Virus record (IMG/VR): IMGVR_UViG_3300025732_000134
Coordinates: 1 to 35,143 of that record
Reading direction: 5' to 3' (one strand)
Length of the DNA: 35,143 nt
Source: a virus
Shown here: one piece after another, positions 14,675 through 34,704 of the stretch
Layout of the letters: each line of letters opens with the position of its first letter
Position numbering within the stretch: position 1 is the first letter of the stretch
Notes under the pieces: generated by a model
Told to the model about the DNA's origin: nothing
The model's database searches: none
The model's input: the letters and a program-made list of their open reading frames with translations, nothing else
Position numbers and translations under genes: made by a program

Positions 14675-14688
14675 AAATTATGTATATT

Positions 14689-14710
14689 GGGGATAACAAT
14701 AGTTATCTCC
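14689..14710 (+). other. Hairpin ending directly at the lysozyme start codon
   Basis: GGGGATAAC (14689-14697) pairs with GTTATCTCC (14702-14710) around the loop AATA, nine pairs with one G-T wobble. The next base is the A of ATG 14711. The 3' arm ends in CTCC rather than a ribosome binding site. It may hold the start closed or act as a transcript end. Confidence 0.75.
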
Positions 14711-15370
14711 ATGTCGGATCTTTCGCGTGCTATTAACCTAATTCGTAAATACGAAGGGTTTAACGAGAAAGCATACGCAGATCCACACACTGGCGCAGAG
14801 CCCTACACCATCGGGTTTGGAACCCAGTTTTACCCCGATGGTTCCCCTGTCAAAAAAGGTCAACGCTGCAGCCAAGAGAAAGCACTAGAGTACCTCTTCC
14901 ATGAGGTCAACGTCATTGAGTCCCAGTTACTGCGTCAGAACCTTGGGCTTGATGACAACATGCGCCAAGCCCTGATATCATTTATTCACTCAGTTGGCTG
15001 GGAATCTTTCCTCTACAGTCACATCATTGATTACCTGGAAGTGGAAGATTTTGCCAGTGCCACCACAGAAATGAGCCACTGGATCTTTGATCAAAACCAC
15101 AAGGTTGTTGGTGGTCTCTTGGAACGCAGAAGAGAAGAAACGGGTCTTTTCCTTCGTAACGTGGGCACCAGCCCTTGGGCGTCAACCGAAGTTTTGTTGA
15201 CTGCTTTCCGTAATTACAGTGCTGCTCCCCATGAGGTTCGTGCAATTCGCGCTCTAGAAGAACGCATTAATCCTTATATTCTTTCTGAATTTGCCAATGG
15301 TTTTCGCATTGATGAAGATCCATGGGGGGATTTCACCAACGAGTGCGTTGATCTGATATTTAACAGCTAG
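14711..15370 (+). CDS. Endolysin, T4-type lysozyme (GH24)
   Basis: With the start at ATG 14711 the protein has 219 residues (MSDLSRAINLIRKYEGF). The GH24 catalytic set is visible: Glu15 in KYEGF, Asp24 in AYADP and Thr33 in YTIGFGT, spaced as in phage T4 lysozyme. It cuts the MurNAc-GlcNAc bond of peptidoglycan. No signal peptide is seen, so it would need a holin or another export route. The C-terminal 60 residues (from about 160) extend beyond the compact GH24 core and may be a substrate-binding addition. An upstream TTG at 14687 is possible but would place the start inside the hairpin region. Confidence 0.92.
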   Translation: MSDLSRAINLIRKYEGFNEKAYADPHTGAEPYTIGFGTQFYPDGSPVKKGQRCSQEKALEYLFHEVNVIESQLLRQNLGLDDNMRQALISFIHSVGWESFLYSHIIDYLEVEDFASATTEMSHWIFDQNHKVVGGLLERRREETGLFLRNVGTSPWASTEVLLTAFRNYSAAPHEVRAIRALEERINPYILSEFANGFRIDEDPWGDFTNECVDLIFNS

Positions 15371-15394: not shown

Positions 15395-15700
15395 ATGCAG
15401 AGTGGGATGGAGCGTTCAGTCGAACCACGAGAGTTTGAACTTCCTCTTGAACTTCAGTTTGCCATGCGCAAAGCTGAGCTTCAATCAGAAGAGATGACTT
15501 GGGAAGAGCTCCGCTTTGCTCTGTTAAGTCTTTACCATCAACGTCTGATGGAATGGCATGCTATCAAAGACATCATGGCGTCTGAAAACATTGAGATCGA
15601 CTGGGATCATCCAACCGATCTTGAATTAGCAAAACTCGCCGCCGCCTGTGGATATCGAGACGACGACGAGGATGATGACGACGAGCTTCAGCCTTTCTGA
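15395..15700 (+). CDS. nblA: NblA-like phycobilisome-degradation adaptor
   Basis: The 101-residue protein has, at residues 16-61, the two-helix pattern of NblA: LPLELQFAMRKAELQSEEM, then TWEELRFALLSLYHQRLMEW. The spacing aligns without gaps to cyanobacterial NblA (LxxEQxFxxR ... MxxExxxxxLxxLYRQxMxxE). NblA binds phycobiliproteins and guides them to Clp protease, freeing amino acids and altering light capture. Unlike the roughly 60-residue host form, this one has an N-terminal extension and an acidic tail (DDDEDDDDEL). A later Met5 (15407) could be the start. NblA homologues are known in some freshwater and uncultured marine cyanophages. The call rests on pattern only; a generic helical hairpin is the alternative. 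Confidence 0.6.
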   Translation: MQSGMERSVEPREFELPLELQFAMRKAELQSEEMTWEELRFALLSLYHQRLMEWHAIKDIMASENIEIDWDHPTDLELAKLAAACGYRDDDEDDDDELQPF

Positions 15701-16251
15701 GCTTCGTCAAGTTGAATGAGGCGGTCCAAATACCACTGAGCTTTCTTCAGTGATTCTGTACCGCCCTTGTGACGTTCGCGCCAAATATACTTGATGCAAT
15801 TTCCTTTGCAGTAACCACGGAACTCTTCAATGGTTAGTGCTGCCTCGATGGCTTCAATTGTTTCGATGGGGCCATCAGTGTAGTGAGGAGGATGATTAAC
15901 CACATCCCCCTGGATCACAGGAGGTGTTTCAATCGTGTTCTCTCCAGGGAAGTTTGAATTTCTATCGCTGGACAAAAACTCAGAAGCCGAGAGTGTTTCT
16001 ACAGTTTTTGCCCAGGGAACTGGGCACACACCTCCAGGGCAATCGCTAATTTCTTCTACCGGAGCAAACCACGTCGTTTGGCTGACAGCATCTTCTCCTC
16101 CTCCTCCGGCCCCTCCAGTTCCAACACCAGAGTCTTTGGCTTCGGAGATGCTCCCATCGCCAAGCCCTGCTCCATTGAGGGGATATAACCCGTCATTCCA
16201 GGCCGTTGCCCCTCGAGATTCAACGGATTCCTTTCTAGCCCCTGCTCGCAT
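15688..16251 (-). CDS. DUF3310 protein (T7 gp1.7-like nucleotide kinase domain)
   Basis: The 187-residue protein ends in a DUF3310 domain (about 115-185): VVNHPPHYTDGPIETIEAIE, FRGYCKGNCIKYIWRERHKG and LKKAQWYLDRLIQL. The family includes T7 gp1.7, reported as an unusual thymidylate kinase. The N-terminal 110 residues are Gly/Glu-rich and poorly conserved in look. The ATG at 16251 has GAGG about 9 bases upstream, supporting this start even though the first 196 nt overlap the upstream minus-strand frame. Its end overlaps convergently with the NblA-like gene by 13 bases. A role in nucleotide supply is inferred from the family. Confidence 0.85.
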   Translation of the reverse strand: MRAGARKESVESRGATAWNDGLYPLNGAGLGDGSISEAKDSGVGTGGAGGGGEDAVSQTTWFAPVEEISDCPGGVCPVPWAKTVETLSASEFLSSDRNSNFPGENTIETPPVIQGDVVNHPPHYTDGPIETIEAIEAALTIEEFRGYCKGNCIKYIWRERHKGGTESLKKAQWYLDRLIQLDEAQKG

Positions 16252-23966: not shown

Positions 23967-24977
23967 ATGTTAATTAAACTTACAGACGCTGCAAAGTTCT
24001 ATAAGGAAGAAAAGCATCAAATTGATGCTTGGAATTGGCTCCAGGCTCAGGTATCTCCTGATGTTCTGGAGTCATTTGCGTCTAAATACCGTACACTACC
24101 TAAGCCTGTCGTTGAGATCAGCAACACTTGGGATGGTGTCCTTGCCGCAGCTAAAACAGCCGGTGCTAAGTGGCCCGAATGTGTTGCTGCACAGTGGGCA
24201 CTTGAGTCGGGCTGGGGACAACATACATCGGGCAAGAATAATTATTTTGGATTAAAAGGCCCTGGTTCTACAGTCAGTACGCAAGAATTTATTAATAACC
24301 AGTGGATCACTATTAAAGCAGGTTTTCTTGATTTTCCCGATCTTCAAACTTGCGTTTGTTATTTAGTTGAGCGTTGGTATAAAGACTTCGGAAATTATAA
24401 AGGTGTTAACAACGCTGCCAGCAGAAATGAATGTGCTCGTTTTTTGATAAAAGAAAGCTACGCTACAGATCCTGATTATGCAACAAAATTAATTCAAATT
24501 ATGGATCGTCAGCTCCAAAATATTGGAGAGAAAAAAGATTCTAACCCACACAACAATAACTTCAATCCTTGGAGCCCTTTCACATACAAAGTTACTCCTA
24601 ACATTACTTACGGTGAACTTTGTTTAAATCAAGAAGGAAGAAGATTTACCAAACAATATCAATGCGACACAGCAAAAGAACTTTGTTTGTTTCTTGAAAA
24701 AATACGTAAACAGTTTGGCAATAAACCACTAATTATTACAAGCGCTTCTCGTCCTGAACCTATTAATTCGTCTGTGGGCGGCGCTAAAAATAGTGAACAT
24801 ACTTACAATGCAGTATCTAAAGGAGCCATTGATTTTTATGTAGAAGGAGTTGATATCTATGCAGTGCAAGAGTGGTGTGATAAAACTTGGCCGTATTCCT
24901 TGGGCTATGGTGCGCCCAAGGGATTTATACATTTAGGTATTAGAGAAGGAAAACCACATGTACGGTGGGACTACTAA
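23967..24977 (+). CDS. Two-domain lysin: glucosaminidase-like (GH73) plus M15 peptidase
   Basis: The 336-residue protein begins with a short helical part (LTDAAKFYKEEKHQIDAWNW) often seen in phage lysins. Residues about 52-185 form a FlgJ/GH73-type glucosaminidase: AAQWALESGWGQHTSGKNNY, with Glu80 as the likely catalytic acid, and NYFGLKG. After a linker, residues about 205-336 form an M15 (VanY/M15_3-type) peptidase: LIITSASRPEPINSSVGGAK, SEHTYNAVSKGAIDFYV with the His and Asp zinc ligands, and FIHLGIR with the last His. It should cut both glycan and stem peptide of peptidoglycan. It may act at entry or lysis; the T4-type lysozyme at 14711 is a second lysin. Confidence 0.88.
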   Translation: MLIKLTDAAKFYKEEKHQIDAWNWLQAQVSPDVLESFASKYRTLPKPVVEISNTWDGVLAAAKTAGAKWPECVAAQWALESGWGQHTSGKNNYFGLKGPGSTVSTQEFINNQWITIKAGFLDFPDLQTCVCYLVERWYKDFGNYKGVNNAASRNECARFLIKESYATDPDYATKLIQIMDRQLQNIGEKKDSNPHNNNFNPWSPFTYKVTPNITYGELCLNQEGRRFTKQYQCDTAKELCLFLEKIRKQFGNKPLIITSASRPEPINSSVGGAKNSEHTYNAVSKGAIDFYVEGVDIYAVQEWCDKTWPYSLGYGAPKGFIHLGIREGKPHVRWDY

Positions 24978-29064: not shown

Positions 29065-29424
29065 CTATACCGAAACAGAAGGAGTTATCGACCGTACCAA
29101 CTCTTTCTCTTCTGCTGTTTTTGCTTTAAGTTTTGTTTTTAAAAACTTAGCCGCTCGATGCGTTTGAGTCGTATCACCACAGGTGTACAAATCAATAGCG
29201 CAATATCCAATCTCTGGCCACGTATGTATTGATGCGTGTGATTCTGACAGTAATGCTAACAACGTCACTCCCTGCGGCTCAAACTTTTCACCAAAAATTC
29301 GTAAGACGTTTGCTTTTGCCATGACGAGAGAAGCCTCAAGCAATCGTTGAAGCTCCTCATAGTCATTAAGAATTCCTGGGTCGCATTCATAAAGATCCAG
29401 GATTAAATGGCGACCATTGTTCAC
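29065..29424 (-). CDS. speD: S-adenosylmethionine decarboxylase proenzyme
   Basis: The 119-residue protein matches bacterial SpeD over its whole length. The self-cleavage site is clear: LLSESHASIHTWPEIGYCAI, with Glu61-Ser62 as the cut that makes the pyruvoyl group on Ser62, His67 nearby, and Cys82 in LYTCGD. It makes decarboxylated SAM for spermidine synthesis. speD is a known cyanophage auxiliary gene. Its ATG overlaps the primase stop (ATGA), so it is translated with the replication gene; polyamines could help neutralise phage DNA. Confidence 0.94.
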   Translation of the reverse strand: MNNGRHLILDLYECDPGILNDYEELQRLLEASLVMAKANVLRIFGEKFEPQGVTLLALLSESHASIHTWPEIGYCAIDLYTCGDTTQTHRAAKFLKTKLKAKTAEEKELVRSITPSVSV

Positions 29425-33647: not shown

Positions 33648-33752
33648 ATGCAGTCTTTTAATTACGCAATTATCACAATCCTTGGCGCTATGCTTGTGGT
33701 TATTAGCATGGATGCTTACCTGTTCTTTATGGAAGTTGCATCTCGCCAATGA
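33648..33752 (+). CDS. 34-residue single-span membrane peptide upstream of hli
   Basis: ATG 33648 to TGA 33752 encodes 34 residues: MQSFNYAIITILGAMLVVIS, then MDAYLFFMEVASRQ. About 25 residues are hydrophobic, enough for one membrane span. Its stop overlaps the hli start (ATGA), so the two are translationally coupled. It is too short for common ORF calls. Size and make-up are like small photosystem subunits, and the beginning faintly resembles PsbT, but the C-terminus does not. A partner of the Hli protein or a thylakoid peptide is a reasonable guess. Unknown. Confidence 0.65.
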   Translation: MQSFNYAIITILGAMLVVISMDAYLFFMEVASRQ

Positions 33753-33991
33753 ACAAATTTTTTCTTGGTATACAGGGCTATTGGTCGTGTTTAGGCTGGG
33801 CTCTTCTTGCTTTATGGACCTGGGTACTGGAAATGTTACCTGATCTTCGTTTTTGGAAGTTGCATAACAACCTTGACGATCACCTTTGGTATGCCGAACG
33901 TGTCAACGGTCGTCTTGCCATGTTGGCACTGACCTTCCTTTTCATTTGGTGCACCACCCATGGGATCAAACTTAACGCGCTTTTATTTTGA
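33749..33991 (+). CDS. hli: High-light-inducible protein with an extra membrane segment
   Basis: The 80-residue protein has the chlorophyll-binding helix typical of Hli/Scp proteins: YAERVNGRLAMLALTFLF, with Glu50, Asn53, Arg55 and Met58 in the ExxNxRxAM signature. These proteins bind chlorophyll and carotenoid and protect photosystem II. Most cyanophage forms are 40-70 residues with one span. Here residues 11-30 (YWSCLGWALLALWTWVLEML) look like a second span, Trp-rich. It is second in the divergent operon, coupled to the 34-residue peptide. It should act in the thylakoid membrane during infection. Confidence 0.88.
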   Translation: MNKFFLGIQGYWSCLGWALLALWTWVLEMLPDLRFWKLHNNLDDHLWYAERVNGRLAMLALTFLFIWCTTHGIKLNALLF

Positions 33992-34121
33992 GTTTGATGA
34001 CGACTGTCGTACAGGTTGTTTTGAAGGCTTGGCTTTTGAAGATATTGAAACCATTGAGGCAGACGTTTATGAAATAGAGCTACAATCCAAGGAGATTCCG
34101 TACACTCGAGTTGATCTGTAA
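33960..34121 (+). CDS. Small acidic protein, 53 residues
   Basis: ATG 33960 to TAA 34121 encodes 53 residues: MGSNLTRFYFEFDDDCRTGC, FEGLAFEDIETIEADVYEIE, then LQSKEIPYTRVDL. Glu and Asp make up more than a quarter. It overlaps the hli end by 32 bases in another frame and ends one base before the next ATG. It fills the gap between hli and the methyltransferase, which supports it as a gene. It is shorter than common cutoffs. Function unknown. Confidence 0.65.
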   Translation: MGSNLTRFYFEFDDDCRTGCFEGLAFEDIETIEADVYEIELQSKEIPYTRVDL

Positions 34122-34122
34122 C

Positions 34123-34704
34123 ATGACACGTACCTGGGACGATTACTTTAACCCCATCAAAAACAAGCTGGGCGCACGTCAGCACACCTTTCAAAAGATC
34201 TTTAAGCATTTAGATGAGTGCCATAATCCAATCATCATTGAGACTGGTACATACCGAGAAAAAGACAACTACACGGGCGATGGTTGCTCAACCCTTCTGT
34301 TCGATAACTATATCGATATCCGTGGAGAGGGGCAGCTGATTTCAATTGACATTGATCCAGGTGCCTGTGCACTAGCAAAACAAGCAACCAAGCATGCCGA
34401 GATCATTGAGTCTGATTCCGTAGAAGCTCTTGACACCTTTACAGGTGCATGTGATCTGCTCTACCTGGACTCTTATAACATCACCGATTGGAACAATGAT
34501 TGGGCACCGGCTGCCCATCACCTCAAAGAGATATTTGCAGCTTATTCTTTGCTATCTCTTGGGACCTTGATCGTGATTGATGACAACATCAGAGCTCCTG
34601 ACGGTCGTCGCCATGGCAAGGGACGGCTTGTTTACGAACTTATGGAATCTATTGGTATTGACCCCTGCTTTGATTCATACCAAATTGGCTGGCTCTGGTA
34701 CTAG
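34123..34704 (+). CDS. Class I SAM-dependent methyltransferase-like protein
   Basis: From ATG 34123 the protein has 193 residues. It has the class I pattern: PIIIETGTYRE (motif I with acidic end), GQLISIDIDPGACALAKQA (motif II with Asp), AEIIESDSVEAL, and DLLYLDSYN (motif IV). It resembles the Methyltransf_24/cephalosporin-hydroxylase-like group found in glycan or small-molecule modification. The closing IDDNIRAPDGRRHGKGRLV keeps conserved Asp residues. The substrate is unknown; a sugar or cell-surface target is possible. It lies one base after the acidic gene's stop. Confidence 0.8.
   Translation: MTRTWDDYFNPIKNKLGARQHTFQKIFKHLDECHNPIIIETGTYREKDNYTGDGCSTLLFDNYIDIRGEGQLISIDIDPGACALAKQATKHAEIIESDSVEALDTFTGACDLLYLDSYNITDWNNDWAPAAHHLKEIFAAYSLLSLGTLIVIDDNIRAPDGRRHGKGRLVYELMESIGIDPCFDSYQIGWLWY

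Follow-up and report, generated by a model that had tools for sequence, protein, structure and literature searches.

NblA is a cyanobacterial protein that tags light-harvesting antennae for breakdown. It is described as contacting phycobilisomes through its C-terminus and binding ClpC (PMC7760959), and as acting as a ClpC adaptor (PMC7966870). Phages carry such genes as well: PMC9602691 reports nblA from 14 cyanopodoviruses and several cyanomyoviruses, lists the 14 cyanopodoviruses and S-TIM5 as carriers after Nadel et al. 2019, and states that phage NblAs, when expressed, cause loss of phycobilin. One such assignment, in phage S-SCSM1 (QFG06501.1), is distant and was published on HHpred evidence. 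For the S-EIV1 group, Table 2 of PMC5332604 gives environmental genomes with hli and ptoX, and nblA only for other groups; in excerpts from papers that name both nblA and S-EIV1, we found no assignment of nblA to S-EIV1.

Here we analyse an open reading frame in a viral contig of 35,143 nucleotides (IMG/VR record IMGVR_UViG_3300025732_000134; "the window" below means this whole stretch of DNA). Its product is, by distant homology, a probable member of the NblA family that is new in its C-terminal end. Like NblA (PF04485; 1OJH), it has a two-helix core, alignable without gaps over 50 residues; it differs from NblA in length (101 against ~60 amino acids), in having lost the K53 and W56 sites, and in what follows the core: an additional conserved stretch, a third helix (predicted) and a tail rich in acidic residues. 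The NblAs of Ma-LMM01 and PaV-LD are also phage-borne members of the family but lack the extension, while the S-SCSM1 protein has 54 residues, gave no Pfam NblA match here and, unlike the window protein, has no acidic tail.

Table 1. Features of the NblA-like locus, in window coordinates
Feature	Position	Strand	Basis and remarks
Lysozyme/endolysin ORF, conserved upstream neighbour	14687..15370	+	PF00959, E 7e-20
NblA-like ORF, 101 aa	15395..15700	+	ORF call; Pfam; purifying selection; M5 (15407) is an alternative start
NblA-like helix-loop-helix core, residues 14-63	15434..15583	+	hhalign against NblA set; helix prediction
Extension without NblA counterpart, residues 64-86	15584..15652	+	Conserved D71, P73, T74, E77; predicted helix 75-86
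Acidic tail, residues 87-101 plus stop, ending L-Q-P-F	15653..15700	+	Overlaps at its 3' end with the convergent DUF3310 ORF
DUF3310 ORF, convergent, conserved downstream neighbour	15688..16251	-	PF11753, E 4e-19; 13 bp overlap with the NblA-like 3' end

A core gene of S-EIV1-type cyanophages

The ORF is a real gene under strong purifying selection, lying, as a preliminary description had it, beside the lysozyme, whose ORF ends 24 bp upstream. Its isolated relative is S-EIV1, a phage of Synechococcus, where the ortholog (AHV82245.1) occupies the same place after the lysozyme, is 61% identical to the window protein, and is annotated "hypothetical protein" and not as NblA; this ortholog, together with a gene order as in S-EIV1, places the contig, as judged from sequence, in the S-EIV1 cyanophage lineage. 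Scans for promoters and terminators gave no signal above chance.

Relatives were collected from several searches. From IMG/VR, 80 loci were kept out of 181 confirmed; a divergent member used as query added 66 further loci; and the S-EIV1 lysozyme as query gave 38 loci, 36 of them with the gene. The full collection comprises 185 loci, among which at least four contigs are present twice, and yields 111 distinct complete proteins, so that counts of 111 below refer to distinct protein sequences; one locus with a truncated start (L165) was left out of the protein count. The contig of the divergent query sits in a metagenome-assembled genome (MAG) labelled Euryarchaeota, and because its gene content matches that of S-EIV1-type phages we take it to be a misbinned phage. 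As a separate observation, two contigs in the Euryarchaeota-labelled MAG (C39 and C40 of G001, loci L096 and L097) carry two partial NblA profile matches, covering profile positions 1-32, one of them at 24.8 bits.

Across this collection the neighbourhood is nearly constant. A same-strand lysozyme precedes the gene in 140 of the 141 loci with room for one, and in the remaining case (L109) a lysozyme is also present, ~810 bp upstream; a convergent DUF3310 gene follows in 135 of 136 loci. The two lysozyme-derived loci without an NblA-like gene have lysozymes only 24% identical to the query, and all close lysozyme relatives (36/36) have it. The gene thus behaves as a core gene of the S-EIV1-type lineage, near-universal there and no rare extra. 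The preliminary description had called it a rare cyanophage gene, a view that does not hold for this lineage; nblA is, moreover, already on record from the podoviral and myoviral carriers of PMC9602691.

It had also counted the gene with hli and speD as three host-metabolism genes. The speD gene is clear (window 29068-29424, minus strand; PF02675, E 1.4e-34), with matches in 142 phage records. The nearest is in S-EIV1; there the match is split into two pieces and extends beyond the gene as annotated. The hli-like ORF (33749-33991, plus strand) has an NGRLAM motif and reaches only sub-threshold scores, 15.3 against 22.3 bits for PF00504 and E 0.014 for phrog_178, both below confidence. Elsewhere in the window we noted a second cell-wall enzyme, a glucosaminidase (PF01832) fused to a peptidase M15 (PF08291) at 23967-24977 (plus strand), and a methyltransferase-like protein (PF13578) at 34111-34704 (plus strand) with a strong match to phrog_24975, which is of unknown function.

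Relationship of the helical core to NblA

The window protein matches the Pfam NblA profile (PF04485) without gaps, residues 15-61 to profile positions 1-47, with a score of 18.6 bits (E 0.0025) that falls short of the curated cut-off of 25 bits; the gapless alignment of the two-helix core described earlier is therefore real, at a sub-cut-off score. In a six-frame search this ORF was the sole NblA match on the entire contig (E 4.8e-5), as the family gene is in the S-EIV1 genome. NblA was also matched in 4 of 14 control genomes, Synechococcus elongatus among them, and above the cut-off in only one, so a single weak match of this kind would not suffice.

The family as a whole provides several further lines of evidence. 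Firstly, in one-by-one Pfam scans, NblA was matched at E<=1 by all 35 members of set A1 and at E<=0.1 by all 42 members of set A2, where it was the only Pfam family common to every member scanned (the runner-up reached 14/42); the best member, L074, scored 28.1 bits, the only one above the cut-off among 16 members' individual Pfam scans. Secondly, when the A2 profile was run against 177,635 distinct PDB sequences, the NblA structure 1OJH came top at E 3.1e-4, with the second match at 0.38; another NblA, 2Q8V, appeared at E 1.2 in the PDB search with the A1 profile. Thirdly, hhalign aligned A2 with seven NblA references (five from cyanobacterial plasmids, plus Ma-LMM01 and PaV-LD) over 50 gapless columns at E 4.1e-6, probability 87 and score 34.1, while 100 column-shuffled versions scored at most 18.3. 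Lastly, 15 of 17 hydrophobic NblA columns are kept hydrophobic in the family as against 3 of 23 other columns, and L7, L9, E10, F13, R16, M25 and L34 are common to both.

Individual searches were often negative. Pfam NblA was not matched by the S-EIV1 protein at E<=0.01, nor by L216 even at E<=1; the NCBIfam NblA model matched only 3 of 42 A2 members, at best E 0.016; the A1 profile found nothing in the Ma-LMM01 and PaV-LD genomes; and PHROGs returned no match for the window protein and weak, scattered ones for other members. A 49-residue Anabaena-type NblA stretch matched no phage record even at E 10, and we therefore regard that search as insensitive. Matches to HRD1 were rejected, since they rest on the acidic tail.

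In NblA the two-helix hairpin dimerises into a four-helix bundle. In the window protein, helices are predicted at residues 18-31 and 36-63, with a third at 75-86. Two AlphaFold models had a mean pLDDT of 68-70, and Foldseek and VIA-align searches with both gave no useful match and no NblA; since so small a hairpin of helices, modelled at pLDDT ~70, makes an unsuitable query, we count the fold search as evidence neither for nor against. The HMM and profile-profile comparisons, by contrast, uphold the homology, so the lack of an HMM match that had been named beforehand as refuting did not arise, and residues 14-63 very probably represent a distant, highly diverged NblA homolog.

These comparisons also bear on the reading that the gene encodes a lysis-cassette or other late accessory protein whose helical hairpin merely resembles that of NblA. 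The short distance to the lysozyme, the conserved order of the two genes, the presence of the gene with every close lysozyme relative and the sub-threshold NblA scores of most members favour such a protein, and the site in an apparent late operon, atypical for a metabolic gene, suggests caution about an NblA-type metabolic role. Against it stand the NblA matches of every A2 member, the shuffle control and the L, E, F, R and M signature held in common, and we consider it quite unlikely.

The C-terminal end

At the C-terminal end of NblA helix 2 the phage family parts from NblA: in place of that end come a conserved segment, a further helix (predicted) and an acidic tail that evolves fast. We take Leu51 and Lys53 of NblA to be phycobilisome-binding residues. 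Six of the 7 references have a basic residue at position 53, and the corresponding window residue 62 is basic in only 1 of 111 family proteins; position 56 is Trp in all six references with a residue there, and the equivalent site (window residue 65) is Trp in none of the 111, being occupied by N, D, E, H or G.

Between core and tail lies a segment that the preliminary description had not mentioned (residues 64-86, including the predicted third helix), in which P73, T74 and E77 are invariant among the 111 proteins and D71 is conserved, giving the motif D-x-P-T-x-x-E-L; a PDB search with this extension returned no match. The features that the preliminary description did single out fared differently. 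The acidic tail holds up throughout the family, with 7-13 D/E among the last 22 residues of the 111 proteins. The N-terminal extension is short, and start-site uncertainty accounts for part of it, since M5, invariant in sets A1 and A2, is the common start and M1-G4 are missing from many relatives. Median dN/dS is lowest in the core (0.07), higher in the extension (0.22) and highest in the tail (0.53).

Of the 111 proteins, 83 have Phe as their last residue (Pro-Phe in 70, another residue before Phe, or xF, in 13), 27 have DPF followed by 1-5 residues, and one ends otherwise. A single change on the tree is enough for each of two forms, DPF-plus (with the one other) and xF. The tail of AHV82245.1 is longer than that of the window protein and ends ELAPF. 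The tip overlaps the end of DUF3310 in 170 of 183 loci, mostly by 13, 12 or 4 bp (2 of the 185 loci have no DUF3310 match). Because the PF tip occurs without overlap in four lineages (L048, L166, L218 and L017), overlap alone cannot account for it; in the window's clade the overlap may nevertheless help to hold the tip in place.

An acidic run ending in Phe recalls the tips of SSB and T7 gp2.5. The E. coli SSB C-terminus is given as DDDIPF (PMC8509808), and T7 gp2.5 requires its C-terminal Phe, according to a title cited in PMC9917605. The tail might accordingly mimic SSB and bind host or phage replication and repair proteins that normally take the SSB C-terminus. The prevalence of Phe and Pro-Phe ends, the persistence of PF in lineages without the DUF3310 overlap, and the PF ending shared by each of the 17 SSBs that these phages yielded (from 15 of 26 and 2 of 13 records searched, one split over two frames) are in keeping with mimicry. 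Yet 27 proteins continue beyond PF and one lacks it; the two SSBs of the DPF-plus clade still end in PF, and those of the SVF clade end in DPPF; and the 13-bp overlap contains the tip in the window's clade and may fix it there. The family also differs from SSB and T7 gp2.5 in having no OB fold and, in one clade, a tip that is not terminal. Co-evolution would predict joint change of family and SSB tips, which was not seen in the DPF-plus and SVF clades. Because the family's tips do not track the phages' SSB tips, family-wide SSB mimicry is not favoured, and we give it almost no weight. As an aside, the split SSB gene (L230/L231, record G028) may reflect a frameshift or a sequencing error.

Candidate functions

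We regard it as about an even proposition that the protein is a Clp adaptor of the NblA type whose partner-binding end is new, with phycobilisomes as its likeliest target. The NblA-like hairpin would form an NblA-type dimer, the dimer would recruit the host ClpC chaperone-protease, and the adaptor would hand a host protein over for degradation during infection, with the new C-terminal part setting the binding partner. Phycobilisomes as the actual target are the leading candidate, a putative function whose chances we put at even or a shade below. In favour of an NblA-type reading, Pfam NblA is matched at 52 bits by the phage protein of Ma-LMM01 and at 47 bits by that of PaV-LD. The loss of the K53 and W56 sites, at the end with which NblA would bind phycobilisomes, weighs against the phycobilisome breakdown proposed earlier. 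That the acidic tail changes partner choice, as proposed earlier, may be so and fits the data. The earlier observation is thus confirmed and its interpretation partly supported.

The altered end admits other partners. A retargeted adaptor would retain the NblA-like dimer and the Clp link, the new segment and acidic tail choosing a host protein other than the phycobilisome. The loss of the basic residue and Trp from the end of helix 2, next to the conserved D-x-P-T-x-x-E-L segment, is consistent with this, given the C-terminal contact of NblA with phycobilisomes described in PMC7760959, as is a tail that evolves fast yet keeps its acidity and PF tip, as expected of a docking peptide. However, picocyanobacterial phycobiliproteins may differ too, so that a changed binding end could still suit phycobilisomes; we think retargeting unlikely. 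We are more doubtful still of a rebuilt NblA-type Clp adaptor that keeps the dimeric hairpin but has, in place of the cargo-binding end, an acidic, Phe-tipped docking peptide similar to SSB tips. Such an adaptor would turn the host's Clp proteolysis on a new host target, perhaps one active in replication or repair, either in addition to phycobilisomes or in their stead.

A protein that keeps the core's hydrophobic pattern and lacks the putative cargo-binding end also has a dominant-negative look: it might pair with host NblA and block the breakdown of phycobilisomes, leaving the antenna to go on supplying the infection. A title cited in PMC7966870 reports that NblA1 and NblA2 of Synechocystis form an essential heterodimer, which would suit such a decoy. 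Known phage NblAs, however, are described as promoting breakdown and not blocking it (PMC9602691), and hosts without nblA and nblB, as reported for one Antarctic Synechococcus strain (PMC6337551), offer nothing to block; a decoy therefore seems very unlikely.

If the protein is indeed an NblA-type adaptor, its phage would supply the entire switch in hosts without nblA. The altered C-terminal end allows a direct test of which part of NblA picks the cargo. A widespread cyanophage lineage would then have an adaptor for host proteolysis as a core gene, as against an occasional auxiliary one.
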